Source: Leucobacter muris (lineage in GTDB: Bacteria; Actinomycetota; Actinomycetes; Actinomycetales; Microbacteriaceae). Taken from it: 64,000 nucleotides of DNA. Shown in pieces: positions 1-56,801 of this stretch (position 1 is its first letter; each line of letters starts with the position of its first letter). The stretch lies in assembly GCF_004028235.1 (NCBI RefSeq), contig NZ_CP035037.1, positions 558,001-622,000 of the forward strand, given 5' to 3'. A program made the translations under genes and the position numbers. The notes under the pieces were generated by a model, which was not told where the DNA came from, ran no database searches, and saw nothing but the letters and a program-made list of their open reading frames with translations.

Positions 1-1304
1 ACGCCGTGAAGTATGCCGCCGAGATCATCCCGCTCGTCGAGGACGTCTCCCTCGACACGGTCTGGCTCGGCCTGCGCGTGCAGGGGAACGGCGCGCAGTA
101 CGGCGCCGATCGCACCTCAGAGGTGATCCTCTCGGCGACCGGTGTGCAGGGCCCCGGCGATCTCGTCGCCTACCTCACCGGCAGCTTCGGCGACATCGAT
201 CGATACTTCGACTCGACCGACGGCTTCGACGCCTCTCAGGGGTACGCGAACGACTCCGTCACCATCCCGCCCGACACCCACACCCACCTCAGCTGGGCCT
301 TCACCGAACCCGGCTACTACACGCTCGACCTGCGGGGAAGCCTGCAGGTGACCCCCGACCAGCAGCCGATCGACATCGCGGCGGGCGAGATCACCTTCGC
401 CGTGGGCGTCGACCCCTACGGTGCCCCGGGCCGCCCCGGCGCGCACGTGCTGAACTCCGGGCACTCCGACCTGGTGCTCGACCTCGACGAACACGAACTC
501 CGCGTGCTCGTCGACCACGAGCACGGCACCTCCGAGGTGCATCAGGAGACGCTCGCCCCCGACGACCTCGTGGTCGAGGTGCCCAACAAGGCCCTGCACG
601 AGATCCCCGGCGATCCGGCCTATCGCTTCCTCGGCCGGCCGGGCGACCAGGTCTACCAGCTCGCCCAGGCGGTGCTGGGCAAGCACGTGCACGGCGAGAT
701 CGATCCGCACCTGTGGCAGAACGTGCGCAACGCGATGTCGTACACCGAGATCATCCGCGACACGCTCATCGAGGTCGATCCGGGGGGCGCCGAGACGTAC
801 ACCGAGAACGCGACCGCCTATCTGCGCGAACTCGAAGAGCTCGACGCCGAGGTGCGCGACACGATCGCCGAGATCCCGCGCGAGGCCCGCACGCTCGTCA
901 CCACCCACGACGCCTACGCCTATCTCGCGCGGGCCTACGACCTCGACATCGTCGGATTCGTGACCCCGAACCCGTCGGTCGAGCCCTCGCTCTCCGAGCG
1001 CAAGAGACTCACGGAGACCATCCGCAACCTGCGGGTGCCGGCCGTGTTCCTCGAACCGAACCTGGCCTCGCGCTCCTCCACCCTCGTCGAAGTCGCGAAA
1101 GAGCAGGGGATCGAGGTCTGCAGCATCTACGGCGACGCCTTCAGCGCCGAGGTGACGAGCTACGTCGAGATGATGCGCTTCAACGCGCACTCCGTGCGGG
1201 ACTGCCTGACCGGTGCGCCGCACGGGGACGAGAAGGCCGCGGGCGCGACCGCGACGCATGAGGACACACCGGGCGCCGACGCCCACGACAAGGAGAATCA
1301 ATGA
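1..1304 (+). CDS. Anchored-repeat ABC transporter substrate-binding protein (5' truncated)
   Basis: The reading frame is open from the window edge, so the N-terminal lobe and signal peptide lie upstream. Counting from the codon at position 6, residues about 1-140 form a surface-repeat (choice-of-anchor M type) domain with GVQGPG and HTHLSW (92-97). Residues about 190-410 are the C-terminal lobe of a cluster A-I (ZnuA/PsaA-like) binding protein. Probable metal ligands are H235 in DPHLW, H301 in THDAY, E350 and D377. A His-rich stretch (EHGTSEVHQ, HVHGEID) is also visible. This fused layout matches the anch_rpt_subst family, whose substrate is predicted to be Zn or Mn but is not proven. The stop overlaps the next ATG by four bases, and the operon continues through the ATPase and permease. 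Confidence 0.85.
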   Translation, partial: AVKYAAEIIPLVEDVSLDTVWLGLRVQGNGAQYGADRTSEVILSATGVQGPGDLVAYLTGSFGDIDRYFDSTDGFDASQGYANDSVTIPPDTHTHLSWAFTEPGYYTLDLRGSLQVTPDQQPIDIAAGEITFAVGVDPYGAPGRPGAHVLNSGHSDLVLDLDEHELRVLVDHEHGTSEVHQETLAPDDLVVEVPNKALHEIPGDPAYRFLGRPGDQVYQLAQAVLGKHVHGEIDPHLWQNVRNAMSYTEIIRDTLIEVDPGGAETYTENATAYLRELEELDAEVRDTIAEIPREARTLVTTHDAYAYLARAYDLDIVGFVTPNPSVEPSLSERKRLTETIRNLRVPAVFLEPNLASRSSTLVEVAKEQGIEVCSIYGDAFSAEVTSYVEMMRFNAHSVRDCLTGAPHGDEKAAGATATHEDTPGADAHDKENQ

Positions 1305-2325
1305 CCCGCTCGCGTACGAGCCGAGCGCTGCTCGGCGGTGCACTGGTGGCAGCCGCCCTCGCGCTGCTGCCGGCCTCGATGGCGCTCGCAGTGGAGGCCC
1401 CCGACGACGGGCTGACGCAGACGCTCGACCCCAATCAGGCTCAGGGCACGGGCCAGGTGGTGCTCGACGACGGGCACATCGACTTCGGCCCGACGCTCAA
1501 CACGGGGGAGTGGATCGTGCAGATCCACGACGACACGGGCGCCCCATCGTACTGGCGCATGCCGTCCGACGTCGTCGCCCACGTGAACGACGCCGCGAAG
1601 CTCACGATCCCCGAGAGCGAGGACTACGCCTTTCTCGGGCTCGAGCCGGGCACCGAGGCCTGGGTGATTCCGCAGGTGCGCAAGCCCGGCGTCATCTGGA
1701 CGGGCTGGAACACGCAGGAGCCCACGGTGCTCGACTCCCTGAGCATGGGCACCACGCTCAGCATCCTCGGGGTGCAGGGGCCGGGCGACGTCTCGGTCTA
1801 CCTGCAGAGCGGCAACTTCGGTCAGCCCGAGCCGCTCTGGTCGACGCACGAGGCGTTCCCGCAGCAGACCTGGATCGAATCGAACACCCACACGCACGCG
1901 AACTGGGTGTTCGACGAACCCGGCGTGTACCTGGTCGAGGTGCAGTTCTCGGGCGAGCTGATCGACGGCGAGCCGGTATCGGCGCACGACACGCTGCGGT
2001 TCGCGGTCGGCGACGGAACCGATTCCGCGCAGGCGTTCACGGCCCGGTTCGACGAGTCGGCGCTCCCCGATGACACCGGCGGAGCCGACGGCGCGACGGG
2101 CCGGGCGAACCCGCGAGCGCCGGGCCCGATCAGGCGGGCGACCCGGCCGACGCGACGGGGCTCGTGATCGGGATCGTCGCCGGTGTGCTGGGCGCGGCGC
2201 TGATCGTCGCGGTCGTGGTGGTGCTGATCGCCCGGTTGGGCGCGAAGAGGCGCGCTCGGGAGCTGGCGTGGCAGCGGGCCCAGGGCCGCGGCGCCGAGCC
2301 GAACGCGAAGGAGGGAACCCGGTGA
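1301..2325 (+). pseudogene. Exported choice-of-anchor M surface protein, frameshifted
   Basis: ATG at 1301 overlaps the upstream stop. Residues 1-30 are a signal peptide ending ALA. One surface-repeat domain follows, with IWTGWNTQEP, GVQGPGDV and HTHANW (197-202), then a Gly/Asp/Pro linker. The open frame runs off at 2167 into an Arg-rich tail. Another frame, from about 2100, encodes the expected linker (PGEPASAGPDQAG), a transmembrane helix (LVIGIVAGVLGAALIVAVVV) and a basic tail ending at TGA 2323-2325. That stop overlaps the ATPase GTG, so the intended gene is 1301-2325 with one base missing near 2090-2105. It was probably a membrane-anchored partner of the transporter. Either a sequence error or a true mutation is possible. 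Confidence 0.8.
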
Positions 2326-3068
2326 GCGTGCTCGAGGTGCAGGGCCTTTCCGTGCGGCTGGGAGGCCGGCGGGTGCTGCGGGACATCGATCTCTCGATCG
2401 GGGACGGCGAGTTCGTCGGTCTGATCGGGCCGAACGGTGCGGGGAAGACGACGCTGCTGCGCTCGGTGCTCGGCGTCGTGCGGCCCGAGAGCGGCCGGGT
2501 GCGGGTGGGTGGCGCTCCGCCGCGCCAGGCGCGCGCCGGCATCGGCTACGTGCCGCAGCGCCACGAGTTCGCGTGGGACTTCCCGATCTCCGTCGAGGAG
2601 ACGGTCATGACGGGCCTCGTGCGCGACGTCGGCTGGTTTCGGCGCCCCCGGCAAGAGCACTACGACGCCGTGGCCGACGCGATCGTGCGCGTCGAGATGG
2701 GCGCACTCGCCCGTCGACCGGTCGGGGAGCTCTCGGGCGGGCAGCGGCAGCGCGTGCTCGTCGCGCGGGCGCTGGCGCTGCGGCCCCGGTTGCTGCTGCT
2801 CGACGAACCGTTCACCGGACTCGACATGCCCACACAGGAGCTGCTGCTCGATCTCTTCCGCGGGCTCGCGGCCGAGGGGCGCGCGGTGGTGATGAGCACC
2901 CACGATCTCGCGGGGGCGATGCACCAGTGCTCGCGCCTCTGCCTCGTGAATCGCACGGTGATCGCCGATGCCAGGCCGGGGGAGCTGCGCGATCCCGCGA
3001 TCTGGATGCGCGCGTTCGACGTGCAGGCGACGAACCCGATCCTGTCGGTGCTGGGGGTGGCCGCCTGA
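2322..3068 (+). CDS. Anchored-repeat metal ABC transporter, ATP-binding protein
   Basis: This 248-residue ATPase starts at GTG 2322 in a GTGA overlap with the upstream surface-protein gene; earlier in-frame ATGs lie inside that gene. Walker A is GPNGAGKTT, the Q-loop is YVPQRHEF, the signature is LSGGQRQRVLVARAL, Walker B is LLLLDEPFTGLD and the switch His is in STHDLA. The Q-loop and the EFAWDFPISVEETV region resemble Mn/Zn (ZnuC/MntB-type) importers, matching the binding protein. It should energise uptake through the permease encoded immediately downstream. Confidence 0.9.
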   Translation: MSVLEVQGLSVRLGGRRVLRDIDLSIGDGEFVGLIGPNGAGKTTLLRSVLGVVRPESGRVRVGGAPPRQARAGIGYVPQRHEFAWDFPISVEETVMTGLVRDVGWFRRPRQEHYDAVADAIVRVEMGALARRPVGELSGGQRQRVLVARALALRPRLLLLDEPFTGLDMPTQELLLDLFRGLAAEGRAVVMSTHDLAGAMHQCSRLCLVNRTVIADARPGELRDPAIWMRAFDVQATNPILSVLGVAA

Positions 3069-4000
3069 TGCTCTCACCGGTCGATTTCATTCAGGATCTG
3101 CTCAATCCCGACCTGCGGTTCCTGCCGAAGGCGCTGCTGGTCGCGGTGATGTCGAGCGTCGTCTGCGGCGTGATCGGCACCTACGTGGTGCTGCGGGGCA
3201 TGGCCTTCATCGGCGACGCGGTGGCGCACGCGGTGTTTCCTGGCCTAGCCGTCGCCTTCGTGATCCAGGGCAACCTGGTGCTCGGAGGCGCTGTCGCAGG
3301 GGTGCTCACCGCGATCATCGTGGCGGTGTTCTCCCAGAACCGCCGCATCAAGGAGGACAGTGTGATCGGGGTGTTCTTCGTGGCGGCGTTCGCGCTCGGC
3401 ATCGTGATCATCTCGCTGTCGCCCGGCTACTCGGGATCCCTGCAGCAGTTCCTCTTCGGCTCGATCACGGGCATCCCCGATGAGGACGTGCTCACGGTCG
3501 CGATCACGGGGGCGGTGCTGCTGCTCGTCGTGTTCCTGCTGCATCGCGAGTTCGTTGCGGTCACGCTCGACCGCGAGATGGCCCGCTCGGCGGGCCTGCC
3601 GGTCTTCGCGCTCGATCTCGGGCTGTACGTGATGGTGGCGATCGCGATCGTCATCTCGATCCAGACGATCGGCAACATCCTGGTGCTCGCGCTGCTCATC
3701 ACCCCCGCCGCCGCGGCCCGGCTGCTCACGGACCGACTGGCCGCGATGATGCTGCTCGCGCCCGTGATCGGCGGCGGCTCCGCTCTCGTGGGACTCTACG
3801 TCTCCTGGAGCTTCGACCTGCCCGCGGGCGGCACGATCGTGCTGGTGGCGACCGCCGTGTTCCTGCTCGCGTGGGTCTTCGCGCCGAGGCACGGCCTGCT
3901 GATGCGCCGGCTGCGGAGGGCGGTGCCGATCGAGGGCGAGGAAGACGAGGACGAGGCGCCCCGGCCCCCGCGGGCTCGGCGTCTGGAGGGAGTGTCATGA
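3068..4000 (+). CDS. Anchored-repeat metal ABC transporter, permease
   Basis: This is a 310-residue membrane protein of the ABC-3 (ZnuB/MntC) family. ATG 3068 overlaps the ATPase stop by one base. Eight or nine hydrophobic helices are visible. The family-typical early motif YVVLRGMAFIGDAVAHAVFPG and the coupling region TLDREMARSAGLPV are present. After the last helix (about residue 275) a 35-residue acidic and basic cytoplasmic tail follows. It should form the membrane channel with the ATPase at 2322 and the binding protein at the window start. The stop overlaps the next start (ATGA), so translation is coupled along the operon. Confidence 0.9.
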   Translation: MLSPVDFIQDLLNPDLRFLPKALLVAVMSSVVCGVIGTYVVLRGMAFIGDAVAHAVFPGLAVAFVIQGNLVLGGAVAGVLTAIIVAVFSQNRRIKEDSVIGVFFVAAFALGIVIISLSPGYSGSLQQFLFGSITGIPDEDVLTVAITGAVLLLVVFLLHREFVAVTLDREMARSAGLPVFALDLGLYVMVAIAIVISIQTIGNILVLALLITPAAAARLLTDRLAAMMLLAPVIGGGSALVGLYVSWSFDLPAGGTIVLVATAVFLLAWVFAPRHGLLMRRLRRAVPIEGEEDEDEAPRPPRARRLEGVS

Positions 4001-6734
4001 ACCGGCGGATCAGAGGCGGCGTGCGCGGGATCGGGATCGCGGCGCTCGTCGTGGCGCTCGCGGCGGGCTCGCTCGGCGCATCGGCGCCGGCCTTCGCGCA
4101 GGATGCGGCGGGGGGCTCGGAAGCGCAGCCGGCGCAGGGGCCCAGCCCGGATCCGAGCCCGGAGACGAGTGCCGAGCAGCCCCTCGGCGACGGCGAGCGC
4201 GCCGATCCTCAGCGAGACGGGGAGACCGGCGCCGGAGCCGAGGTCGAGGCGGCCGATTCCGGCGGGGCCGCCGCCGACACGGCGGAACCCCCGGCCGCGC
4301 CGGGGGTGCGGGCCCCGGTCGGCGCCACCGCGCCTGCCACGGCTGCGGCCCCGACGCTCGCCGAGGCGACGCCGTTCGCCGACCAGTCGGATCAGCCCGC
4401 ACCCGCGAGCCGGGCCAAGCAGGTCATCGGCAACGTGCACACCGACACCGTGTCCGGTTACCTCGACGACGGACGCCTCGTGCTGGAGGCGAAGTACGAC
4501 AGCCCGGGGGGCAGAAAGCCATCCGGATCGACCCGCAGGCGACCGTCTTCCACCTCGTCGACACGACGAGCAGCAGGATGCAGGTGCCGAGCGGCGGTCG
4601 GTACGGATTCATCGGCGAGGCGGGCGACACCTTCTGGTTGGCGCCGCAGACGCAGAACGCCGCCCTCATCTGGCCCGGGTTCAGCACCGAGGACGAGCGG
4701 CTGGTCGGGCAGCTGAGGGGCGGGTCGGTCGCGGTGCGCCTGCTGGGCGTCGACGGGCCGGGGAAAGCCGAGGTGTACCTGCAGGAGACCTTCGGCCCGA
4801 AGCGGGTGTTCAGCTCGAGCGAGCGACTGGCCGACTGGAGCATGGGCGTGCCGCAGCACACCCACATGAACTGGGCGTTCATCGAGACGGGCACGTACAC
4901 CTTCACCTTCGAGATGGAGGCCGTGATCGGCGGCTCGGTGCAGCGGGCGCAGAACGACTACACCTTCGTGGTCGGCGACCTCGACGATCACACGGCCGCG
5001 ACGGCCACCTCGTTCTCGGCCGAGTACAGCGAGGACGCCGAGGGGAACGCGGTGCTCGGCGAGCCTGTTACGTTCACCGCGACCGTCGACTCCGCCGGGG
5101 CGCGCAGCCCGGCGGGAGCCGTGCAGTTCCGCGACGACGAGAGCGGCACCGTGCTGGGCCACGCCCCGGTGGGGGCCGACGGCACCGCGTCATTCCGCAC
5201 CTCCGCCCTGGCTTCGGGCCCGCACCGCATCGTGGCGGAGTTCGTGCCGACCTGGAGCACCGACTTCACCGCCTCGGAGTCCGAGCAGATGACGCTCACC
5301 GTCAGCGGCGAGGCGCAGCCGAGGCCGGAGCATGACGACGTCGACGCGGTGCCCGCCGCCGAGGTGCGCGCCGTTGCGGCCGGCGCGCACGTGCAGGTGC
5401 GGAACCCCGAGAAGACGGTGCGGGCCGGCGAGGTGGTGGCCGGCGCAGTCTCGGCGGAAGCGCTGCGGGGCGGCGACTGGGTCTCGGTCTGGCTGCACAC
5501 CCCCGATCCCGTCTGGCTGGGATGGGTGCGCACGGGTACCGACGGCGGTTTCACCGAGCAGGTTCCGGCCCGCACCGCCGCCGGTACGCACGCGCTGGTG
5601 CTGAAGGACGCGGCGGGCGCCTTCCTCGGCTGGGACGAGGTGCGGGTGACCGGGCAGGCAGGGGGCCCGGAACCGGGCGGTGGAGACCCCGGAGGCGACC
5701 CGGGCGGCGGCAACCCCGGTGGGGGAGGCGGTCCCGGCGGCGGCAGCACTCCGGGCGGCGGCAGCCCCGGTGGCGGCGGTCTGCCCGTGCCGGTGCCGGC
5801 GGCCCCGACGCAGGAGTGCGTACCCAAGGTCGTGCTCGAGACCGGCCACATCGACGCTTTCAACGTCGCCGCGGCCGACGGCCAGGCCGTGCTGCAGCTC
5901 AAGGAGGACGTGACCGGCCTCAACGTGATCCGCGAGGCGGAGAGCGTGCTGCTGCGGGTCAAGGAATCGGCTTACGGCGCCGTGCCGCCGGGCATCGCGG
6001 GCGCTCCGGCGCAGGGCTACGTGCTGCCGCTGAGCCAGGACCCCGATCTGATCTGGCCCGGCTGGAACACGCTGGGGTTCACCGAGGCGAGCGGCTACAC
6101 GAACGTGTCGATCAACGTCGTGGGCGTCGACGGCCCGGGGCGGATCTTCCTCGCCACGCAGGATCCGCTCGGCGCGTGGTCGCCCATCATGGACGGCTTC
6201 GCCATGCCGGGAACGATTCGTGTGCCCCACCCGGCGCACACGCACGCGGCCTGGGTCTTCTCGGCGAAGGGCAATTACAAGCTGACGGTCAACGCGACGG
6301 CGACCAGCCCGGCGACGGGACGGACGCTGACCACGGCGACGCACACCTACATGTTCCAGGTGGGCGACGTCGAGCTGGGCGATGCGTTCTGCGGGGTGGC
6401 CGTCGATCCGAACGCGGCCGCCGCGGGTCTCGCCGTCGGCAGCGCGGTCAAGCAGGCCGGGAGCAAGGCCGTCGCCGCTTCCAAGGCGAAGAACGCCGAT
6501 GCCGCGGCGAAGAAGAGCGGCAGGTCGAGGTCGGCCGCGGCTGCGGGCGCGGACGGCTCGGGCAGCGGCGGGCCGGGAGCGCTGCTGGGGGCGGGAATGC
6601 ACCCGGCGGCCGTCGCGGGTGTGGTCGGGGGCGGCCTGCTGATGCTCAGCGGCATCATCGGCGGCACGGTCTGGTACGTGCGCCGGCTCGGCTCGGCGTC
6701 GGCGGCGACCGCCTCGGCGGCGGTACCGGCGTGA
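3997..6734 (+). pseudogene. Large wall-associated anchored-repeat surface protein, frameshifted
   Basis: ATG 3997 overlaps the permease stop. A signal peptide ending AFAQ is followed by a Pro/Ala/Glu-rich linker. A first surface-repeat domain follows (IWPGFSTED, GVDGPGKAEV, HTHMNW near 4857), then an Ig-like domain (about 4990-5310), a second beta module, a Gly/Pro-rich linker (about 5670-5790), a second surface-repeat domain (IWPGWNTLGF, GVDGPGRI, HTHAAW near 6237) and a C-terminal membrane helix (about 6600-6690). The first 170 codons and the remainder are in different frames. The G6 run at 4506-4511 would read correctly as G7. The layout fits the anch_rpt_wall family, probably bridging wall and membrane to feed the transporter. 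Confidence 0.82.
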
Positions 6735-7536
6735 GCGCGGCCGGCGGAGAGGGCCGGCGCCGAGCCGTGCCCGAGGCGGGCCCGCCGAGACGCTTGATCG
6801 TGGGTTCTCTGCTCGCCGGCCTCGTCGGAGCGGGCTGCGTGTCGGCGGCGCTGCTGCTCGGCGCCCCGGCCCCCGGTGCGGACGTCGCGCCCGCCGTCGC
6901 GCCCGTCGCGCTCGCCGAACCGGTGGCCGCCGAGGCCGGGCCGAGCACGGCCGCCGCCGAGCCCGCGGGGCGCCCGGCTCTCGACCCCGGGTGGCTCGCC
7001 GAGACGGCCGCCCGCACCGGCATCGCTCCGCGGGCGCTCGAGGCGTACGCCTCGGCCGCGCACCGCATCGCGCGCGAGCAGCCCGCGTGCGGGCTGGGCT
7101 GGAACACGCTCGCGGGGATCGGGTTCGTCGAGTCCGAGCACGGCACCATCTTCGGGGGCGCACTGGAGGGCAGCGGGGCGGCGTCGCCTCAGATCATCGG
7201 CATTCCGCTCGACGGCGTCTCGACGAAGGCCGTGCCCGATACCGACGACGGGCGGCTCGACCGCGACCCGGTGTGGGATCGGGCGGTGGGGCCGATGCAG
7301 TTCATCCCCTCGACCTGGGCCGAGTGGGGCGGCGACGGCAACGGCGACGGCATCGCGGATCCGCAGAACATCGACGACGCGGCCTACTCGGCGGCCCGCT
7401 ATCTCTGCGCGGCGGGGGCGATCTCACCGACCCCGACCGCTGGATCGCCGCGGTCGCCGCCTACAACGACACGATCGAGTACAACCACCGAGTGGCCGAG
7501 GCCGCCGAGCACTACGCGTCTTCCTCGGCGGGCTGA
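6731..7536 (+). pseudogene. Lytic transglycosylase (lysozyme-like fold), frameshifted near its end
   Basis: GTG 6731 overlaps the surface-protein stop (GTGA). An N-terminal membrane anchor or signal segment (LIVGSLLAGLVGAGCVSAALL) precedes a transglycosylase domain. It has the catalytic Glu in GIGFVESEHG and the motifs AVGPMQFIPSTWAEWG and DGNGDGIADPQNIDDAAYSAARYLC, typical of MltB/SLT-like enzymes. In the G5 run at 7414-7418 one G is missing; the other frame supplies the expected end (GDLTDPDRWIAAVAAYND) and stops at 7536. It cleaves peptidoglycan glycan strands outside the membrane. Its place in the operon suggests it opens the wall to seat the surface proteins (inference). Confidence 0.82.
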
Positions 7537-55738: not shown

Positions 55739-56801
55739 TCAGACCGCGTCTCCCCGAACCGGCCCCTCCGTGTTCGGCTGCCAGCCGAGCGCGGGCGCCA
55801 CGTGCTCGGCGAAGGCCTGCAGCACGTGCAGGTTGTATTCCACGCCGAGCTGGTTCGGGATCGTGAGCATGAGCGTGTCGGCCGCCATCACCGCCTCGTC
55901 GGCGAGCAGCTGGTCGATCAGGCGATCCGGGGTGTCGGCGTACGTCTTGCCGAACGTGGACCGGATGCCGTCGATGATCCCGACCTGATCCTGCCCGTCG
56001 CGGCCCCGCACGCCGAAGAACATCTCGTCCTGCTCGCTCACCAGCGGGAACACGCTGCGGCTCACCGAGACGCGCGGCGATCCGGTGTGCCCGGCCTCGC
56101 GGTACGCCGCGCGGAAGCGCTCGATCTGCTCCCGCTGCAGCTCGTGGAACGGCTGCCCCGTCGCCTCGGTGAGCAGCGTCGAGCTCATGAGGTTGAGGCC
56201 CTGCCGGCCCACCCACTCGGCGGAGTCCCGCGATCCCGCACCCCACCAGATGCGGTCGCGCAGCCCGGGCGACCTCGGTTCGACCGCGAGCCTGCCGGGG
56301 GGGGGGGGGGGGGGGGGGCATCTGCGGGTCGCTGTCGACGACGCCGTCGCCGTCGATCGCGCGCAGGAACAGCTCGAACTTGTCTCGGGCGATGTCGGCG
56401 CCGCGCGGATCCTCGGATCCCGTGTACCCGAAGGCCTCGTAGCCGCGCAGGGCGGTCTCGGGGGATCCCCGGCTCACGCCGAGCGCGATCCGGCCGTCCG
56501 AGATGAGGTCGAGCGCGGCCGCCTCCTCGGCGAAGTACAAGGGGTTCTCGTAGCGCATGTCGATCACGCCGGTGCCCACCTCGATGCGGCGGGTGCGGGC
56601 GGCCATCGCGGTGAGCAGCGGGATCGGCGAAGCCGCCTGCCGCGCGAAGTGGTGCACGCGCACGTAGGCGCCGTTCACGCCGATCTCGTCGGCCCCCTCG
56701 GCCAGCTCGATCGTCTGGTGCAGCATGTCGCCCGCGGTGCGAACGCGCGAACCGGGCACCGGCCCGTAGTGCCCGAATGACAGGAATCCGAAAGCTCTCA
56801 T
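55739..56801 (-). pseudogene. LLM-class flavin-dependent oxidoreductase, interrupted by a poly-G tract
   Basis: ATG 56801 opens RAFGFLSFGHYG, with VRVHHFARQAASPIPLLTAMAARTRRIEVGTGVIDMRYENPLYFAEEAAALDLISDGRIALGVSRGSPE-type luciferase-like motifs in the N-terminal part. After a 22-base G tract (56297-56318, C on the coding strand) the frame is lost. The expected continuation (PRSPGLRDRIWWGAGSRDSA, then GRQGLNLMSSTLL to PVRGDAV) is in the next frame. Removing one base, or adding two, restores a 354-codon gene. The family oxidises substrates with FMN or F420; substrate is unknown. Confidence 0.82.
56297..56318. repeat. 22-base poly-G tract inside the LLM gene
   Basis: Twenty-two consecutive G on the plus strand encode a run of Pro on the minus strand. 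The length is one more than a multiple of three, which breaks the frame. It is either a slippage-prone contingency tract or an assembly error. Confidence 0.9.

Follow-up and report, generated by a model that had tools for sequence, protein, structure and literature searches.

We analyzed a 64,000-nt stretch of the Leucobacter muris genome (the window; G000:C1:558001-622000 of a single 3.21 Mb contig from the genus Leucobacter, family Microbacteriaceae) and found at its left end an operon for an ATP-binding cassette (ABC) metal importer accompanied by repeat-bearing surface proteins. The operon comprises seven genes on the (+) strand, which encode, in order, a sortase-type surface protein, a substrate-binding protein (SBP), a ZnuE-like membrane protein, an ATPase, a permease, a second surface protein, and a lytic transglycosylase (LT). 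The sequence-only reading, which had listed six genes, gave their order correctly, but the operon has a seventh and starts outside the window: the first gene begins ~2.5 kb upstream, and both its product (P0001) and the N-terminal part of the SBP (P0002) are encoded there. P0001 (L006:7457-9586) has its first ATG at 7457 and a likely start ATG at 7517, preceding a signal peptide, and its tail carries an LSTTG-type sortase signal. Beyond its repeat domain, P0001 also contains two additional GHYH motifs, which could be further metal sites.

Within the window, the 3′ part of the SBP gene occupies 1..1304 (gene start ~405 nt upstream, at ~G000:C1:557595) and is followed by the genes for the membrane-anchored ZnuE-like repeat protein (1301..2325; NF038134, 194.7 bits), the ATPase (2322..3068), the permease (3068..4000; PF00950), a large ZnuF-like surface protein (3997..6734; NF038134 in two stretches, PF16640), and the exported LT (6731..7536; PF13406). 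The large surface protein combines two repeat domains, an Ig-like domain, and a C-terminal membrane segment, with no evident LPxTG. Of the overlaps of 1-4 nt described earlier, those between SBP and ZnuE (4 nt, 1301-1304), ATPase and permease (1 nt, 3068), permease and surface protein (4 nt, 3997-4000), and surface protein and LT (4 nt, 6731-6734) were recovered, while that between ZnuE and ATPase (4 nt, 2322-2325) holds only with the ZnuE end read in a second frame.

A search with the models TIGR03769-TIGR03773 bore out the proposed family assignment. Specifically, the SBP (PF01297; TIGR03772, 748.8 bits), the ATPase (TIGR03771, 348.4 bits), the permease (TIGR03770, 449.5 bits), and the large surface protein (TIGR03773, 206 bits) all exceeded the curated NCBIfam cut-offs (350.45, 268.8, 296.8, and 190.3, respectively), with the ZnuE-like protein (179.7 bits) and P0001 (128.2 bits) remaining below the last of these. 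The repeat domain said to be common to the SBP and the surface proteins was confirmed by TIGR03769 in all four repeat proteins, and the five TIGR03769 matches in the 3.2 Mb genome (E-value up to 0.001) all lie within the operon. Judged by these profiles, the operon is an anchored-repeat ABC system (TIGR03769-03773). Outside the anchored-repeat families, AztC and AztB of the Paracoccus denitrificans AztABCD system were the top NCBIfam models for the SBP and the permease, and AztA was the third for the ATPase; however, the scores (202, 229.4, and 186.6 bits) fell short of the respective cut-offs (350, 280, and 220), and the NCBIfam scan returned no AztD family match among the operon proteins.

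The gene order, whose lack of conservation in relatives had been named as evidence against the proposal, proved stable. We surveyed 80 named loci, the best 80 of 586 confirmed stretches, which lean toward close relatives and include some genomes repeatedly (L122/L123, L086/L087, and L084/L088/L098). In all 77 loci with permease and ATPase in reach (L084, L088, and L116 are short contigs), SBP, ZnuE, ATPase, and permease follow one another on one strand. Extra repeat domains occur in 75 of the 80 loci, and their number differs from locus to locus. An SBP above the cut-off was found in 7 of 54 Leucobacter genomes and in 3 of 396 genomes of a phylum sample, the Leucobacter muris genome included.

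The SBP has the features of a cluster A-I metal-binding protein, namely ZnuA family membership, a His/His/His/Asp ligand set, and a TroA/AztC fold. Alignment with solved SBPs placed the ligands at H376 (codon 708..710), H442 (906-908), and D518 (1134-1136), all on the (+) strand and identical to H235, H301, and D377 of the numbering used earlier, and at a further histidine overlooked there, H90, whose codon lies upstream of the window. Among 89 SBPs (five loci are counted twice, L039-L043 being the same as L053, L047, L055, L048, and L049), H90 is present in 89, H376 in 88 (one T), and H442 and D518 in 88 each (one gap). E350, previously counted as a ligand, is likewise conserved (E491; 88 of 89, one gap), but the aligned Glu of AztC is not known to be a ligand.

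The central finding concerns the surface domain carried by the SBP. In ordinary copies of the repeat domain, an HxD motif precedes an HxH motif. In the SBP, the C-terminal half comes first (54..404, + strand; residues 158-274, NF038134 profile 77-184), with HxH as H233/H235 at 279-287, and the N-terminal half second (447..671, + strand; residues 289-363), with HxD as H294/D296 at 462-470. We derived our own hidden Markov model (HMM) of the domain from 336 matches that these loci contain in frames other than the SBP; the model aligned its positions 75-164 with residues 157-255 of the Leucobacter muris SBP and its positions 1-72 with residues 289-363. The swapped order recurred in all 89 SBPs, 84 within strict limits and 5 (L046, L120, L111, L121, and L108) with a longer first piece, while the HMM had no match in 25 paralogues that lack the insert or in 89 shuffled SBPs. 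The AlphaFold2 models agree: strands of the ZnuE-like protein run E53...E119-123 and then E132...E225-236, whereas in the SBP the counterpart of the second block comes first (E156...E259-270) and that of the first block second (E284...E352-356). Taken together, the HMM order and the strand order indicate that the SBP contains the domain in full, with the former ends joined and a new opening in one loop, i.e., that its surface domain is a circular permutant. None of the 89 SBPs deviates at the motif residues (H233, H235 and H294, D296), and the equivalent residues are likewise invariant in 61 ZnuE rows.

The place of insertion is equally specific. Homology of the SBP to solved structures ends near residue 139 (MntC match) and restarts near residue 370, directly before H376. 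In AztC, a flexible loop (117-133) ahead of His138 is described as required for zinc transfer from AztD (PMC7463823; PMC6689063). Since the insertion point corresponds to this loop, the grafted domain appears to replace the acceptance loop; in AztC, this element before the second His ligand is short, whereas the Leucobacter SBP has a whole permuted domain there. Residues 91-148 of the SBP model have a predicted local distance difference test score below 50, so the geometry of the graft is not readable. A Corynebacterium diphtheriae study describes an SBP motif "in the reverse orientation" (PMC12445094); the string "permut" has 0 occurrences in that paper, where the reversed motif order is not named a circular permutation. 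As far as our literature searches reach, the finding that the surface domain of this SBP is a circular permutant, placed just before a metal ligand, is new.

The imported metal is likely zinc. Using a Zur-box consensus, we found a Zur-like 7-1-7 palindrome 38 nt upstream of the likely ATG of the first operon gene, upstream of the window, where a search for Zur/MntR sites had been suggested; the reversed pattern is absent from the genome, which encodes two FUR-family proteins. The operon may thus be under Zur control. A system dedicated to manganese or iron would account for the fact that several of the solved SBPs that match best by sequence and fold, level with AztC, bind these metals, and for the 229 bits that the ATPase scores against the manganese-type MntA model. 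Nevertheless, we regard such a substrate as very improbable: the third ligand is a histidine (H442) that aligns with His204 of AztC, Zur-like boxes are present, and the homologous C. diphtheriae genes are reported to be Zur- and zinc-regulated (PMC6711530).

Other Zur-like boxes occur in the genome. One (G000:C1:1826981-1826995; L127:4482) lies between divergent genes for a major facilitator superfamily protein and an ABC ATPase, which may form a zinc-metallophore pair, and another (G000:C1:3095913-3095927; L128:4914) precedes the gene for a protein that has a CobW_C domain and no Pfam match to the CobW nucleotide-binding domain. Two sites with two mismatches (L129:5936 and 5964, in G000:C1:3115000-3125000) lie just before an ordinary znuA-type gene, in whose neighborhood there is also a FUR-family gene.

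The mechanism of the anchored-repeat family had been considered undefined, a statement that is out of date: the C. diphtheriae relative znuAECB/znuFG (dip0438-0445) was studied from 2019 to 2025 as a Zur-regulated zinc uptake system. It shares the four-gene core, the HxD/HxH wall proteins, and the reversed SBP motif, and Zur control is reported there; its cluster differs in ending with two membrane proteins of unknown function, and PMC12445094 nowhere uses the word "transglycosylase". According to that paper, growth in low zinc requires ZnuE, and ZnuE, ZnuF, and ZnuG undergo zinc-dependent thermal shifts. Zinc-binding accessory domains are also fused to, or proposed as donors for, cluster A-I SBPs in streptococci (AdcA, a ZnuA-like domain fused to ZinT, and the Pht proteins; PMC6689063, PMC12445094); however, those domains are unrelated and either fused or separate, whereas the Leucobacter domain is permuted and inserted within the SBP.

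On balance, we favor a Zur-controlled anchored-repeat zinc importer in which zinc is relayed from the wall to the SBP while the LT adapts the wall. Zinc shortage would lead Zur to release the operon, and the wall- and membrane-anchored proteins would present a beta-sandwich domain with a putative zinc site made up of its HxD and HxH strands. These repeat domains would capture zinc within the thick wall and across it and deliver it to the lipid-anchored SBP, with ZnuE and the grafted SBP domain located at the membrane; zinc would then move from a repeat domain to the grafted domain, on to the H90/H376/H442/D518 site, and finally to the permease. The LT would adapt the wall during zinc starvation, either by opening it for the large surface proteins or by acting as a zinc-independent hydrolase. 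A more specific version, which we advance tentatively and hold at somewhat under even odds, is that the loop with which the SBP accepts zinc has taken in a circularly permuted copy of the very domain that donates it: a segment made up of the C-half of one wall repeat and the N-half of the repeat after it would have refolded in the SBP, zinc would be handed from copy to copy, first in the wall, then at the membrane, and then in the SBP, where it would move on to the transport site, and the LT would have been drawn into the operon, perhaps more than once, to adapt the wall. The apparent presence of the same zinc-binding domain on the wall, at the membrane, and, rearranged, in the SBP points to a way in which zinc could be passed inward, and a permutant at the place of zinc acceptance offers the proposed relay across a thick Gram-positive wall a specific path that experiments could test.

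Of the sequence-only reading, a metal importer, probably for zinc, with surface proteins that have a common domain is supported. The metal relay that it had proposed gains from the permutant at the AztC-loop position, but the C. diphtheriae data cut both ways. Several results in PMC12445094 weigh against a relay: in strains without znuAECB, ZnuF and ZnuG lower growth under low zinc, sequestration or storage is named among their possible roles, the effect of deleting znuA is only modest, and zinc still elicited a response from His-to-Ala mutants in vitro. The surface repeats might accordingly act as a zinc buffer or store on the wall without direct handover to the SBP, the graft being a structural leftover or a docking site, and the varying number of repeat domains between loci would suit such a role. 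We consider this account unlikely, given that HxH and HxD of the grafted domain are invariant in all 89 SBPs and that ZnuE, required in low zinc in C. diphtheriae, follows the SBP in all 77 testable loci. The C. diphtheriae facts by themselves fit relay and buffer alike, with the precise roles of the wall proteins stated as open in that paper (PMC12445094); it is the graft in the SBP that shifts the balance toward the relay.

The LT scored 33.9 bits against PF13406 (SLT_2; cut-off 24.3) and is the sole SLT_2 match in the genome (E-value up to 0.01), whereas against the MltB model (TIGR02283) the frame-broken piece scored 28.9, below the cut-off of 248.45. Its putative catalytic-type Glu lies in IGFVESEHG, and the Glu of IGxvEsxHG is invariant in 34 of 34 rows. 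A downstream LT on the same strand was found in 21 of the 80 loci (L098 and L107 partial; some of the remaining 59 break off before an LT could be seen), 12 times directly after the permease and 9 times with one or two repeat domains in between. A tree was computed for 34 sequences (22 operon copies and 12 solitary ones; duplicates L039-L042 and the two partial sequences omitted). On it, the operon/solitary label needs 3 changes, compared with 10.1 for shuffled labels, and none of 500 shuffles reached so low a value. Operon copies form two groups, one of which includes the solitary L130 and L138; the tree is unrooted, which leaves room for one gain with losses. Against a strict tie between LT and importer, 14 of 47 system-free Leucobacter genomes have an LT homologue elsewhere in the genome. 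L130 (G024:C1:3268717-3269478) is a lone operon-type LT in an SBP-less Leucobacter genome, possibly a relic of a lost system.

Rather than making room in the wall, as first proposed, the LT may be a metal-independent spare hydrolase for zinc starvation, a role compatible with the relay. We give this explanation close to an even chance and judge it about as good as room-making. It draws on ShyB of Vibrio cholerae, likewise a wall hydrolase of the zinc-starvation response and reported to be Zur-regulated and EDTA-resistant (PMC6381278), on the 12 of 21 LT-linked loci that have no full repeat domain between permease and LT, and on CobW-type genes near 26 of the 80 loci and S14 genes near 11 (one representative of each checked; counts without a background rate). 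However, ShyB is an endopeptidase of a Gram-negative bacterium and not an LT within an importer operon, 9 of the 21 loci have one or two repeat domains ahead of the LT, which is what room-making predicts, and in none of 12 regions with LT homologues from system-free genomes does a Zur-like box lie near the gene. In Acinetobacter, an LT tied to zinc, SltB, has been described, the loss of which relieves a zinc-starved mutant (PMC11834433). A recurring linkage of LT and importer would connect zinc starvation with wall turnover in Actinomycetota.

Three of the six operon genes in the window are frame-broken. According to the track of GC content at third codon positions, the genes for ZnuE, the large surface protein, and the LT each switch from one frame to another, near 2070, 4500, and 7405, respectively; a codon-usage scan also flagged the breaks at ~4500 and ~7405 and did not flag that at ~2070. 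In ZnuE, the open frame spans 1301-2167, with the membrane tail in a different frame ending at 2325. Such switches in three of seven genes could mean that the operon is decaying in the Leucobacter muris genome, but we deem this improbable, as the other four genes (those for P0001, the SBP, the ATPase, and the permease) have open frames and the ligands are retained; furthermore, 6 of 9 candidate breaks in the window fall outside the operon, making assembly indels possible. Candidate breaks near 56290 and 60973 could likewise be assembly indels or gene decay. The SBP of the relative L044 (G017) was matched as two overlapping pieces in different frames and also appears to be frame-broken.
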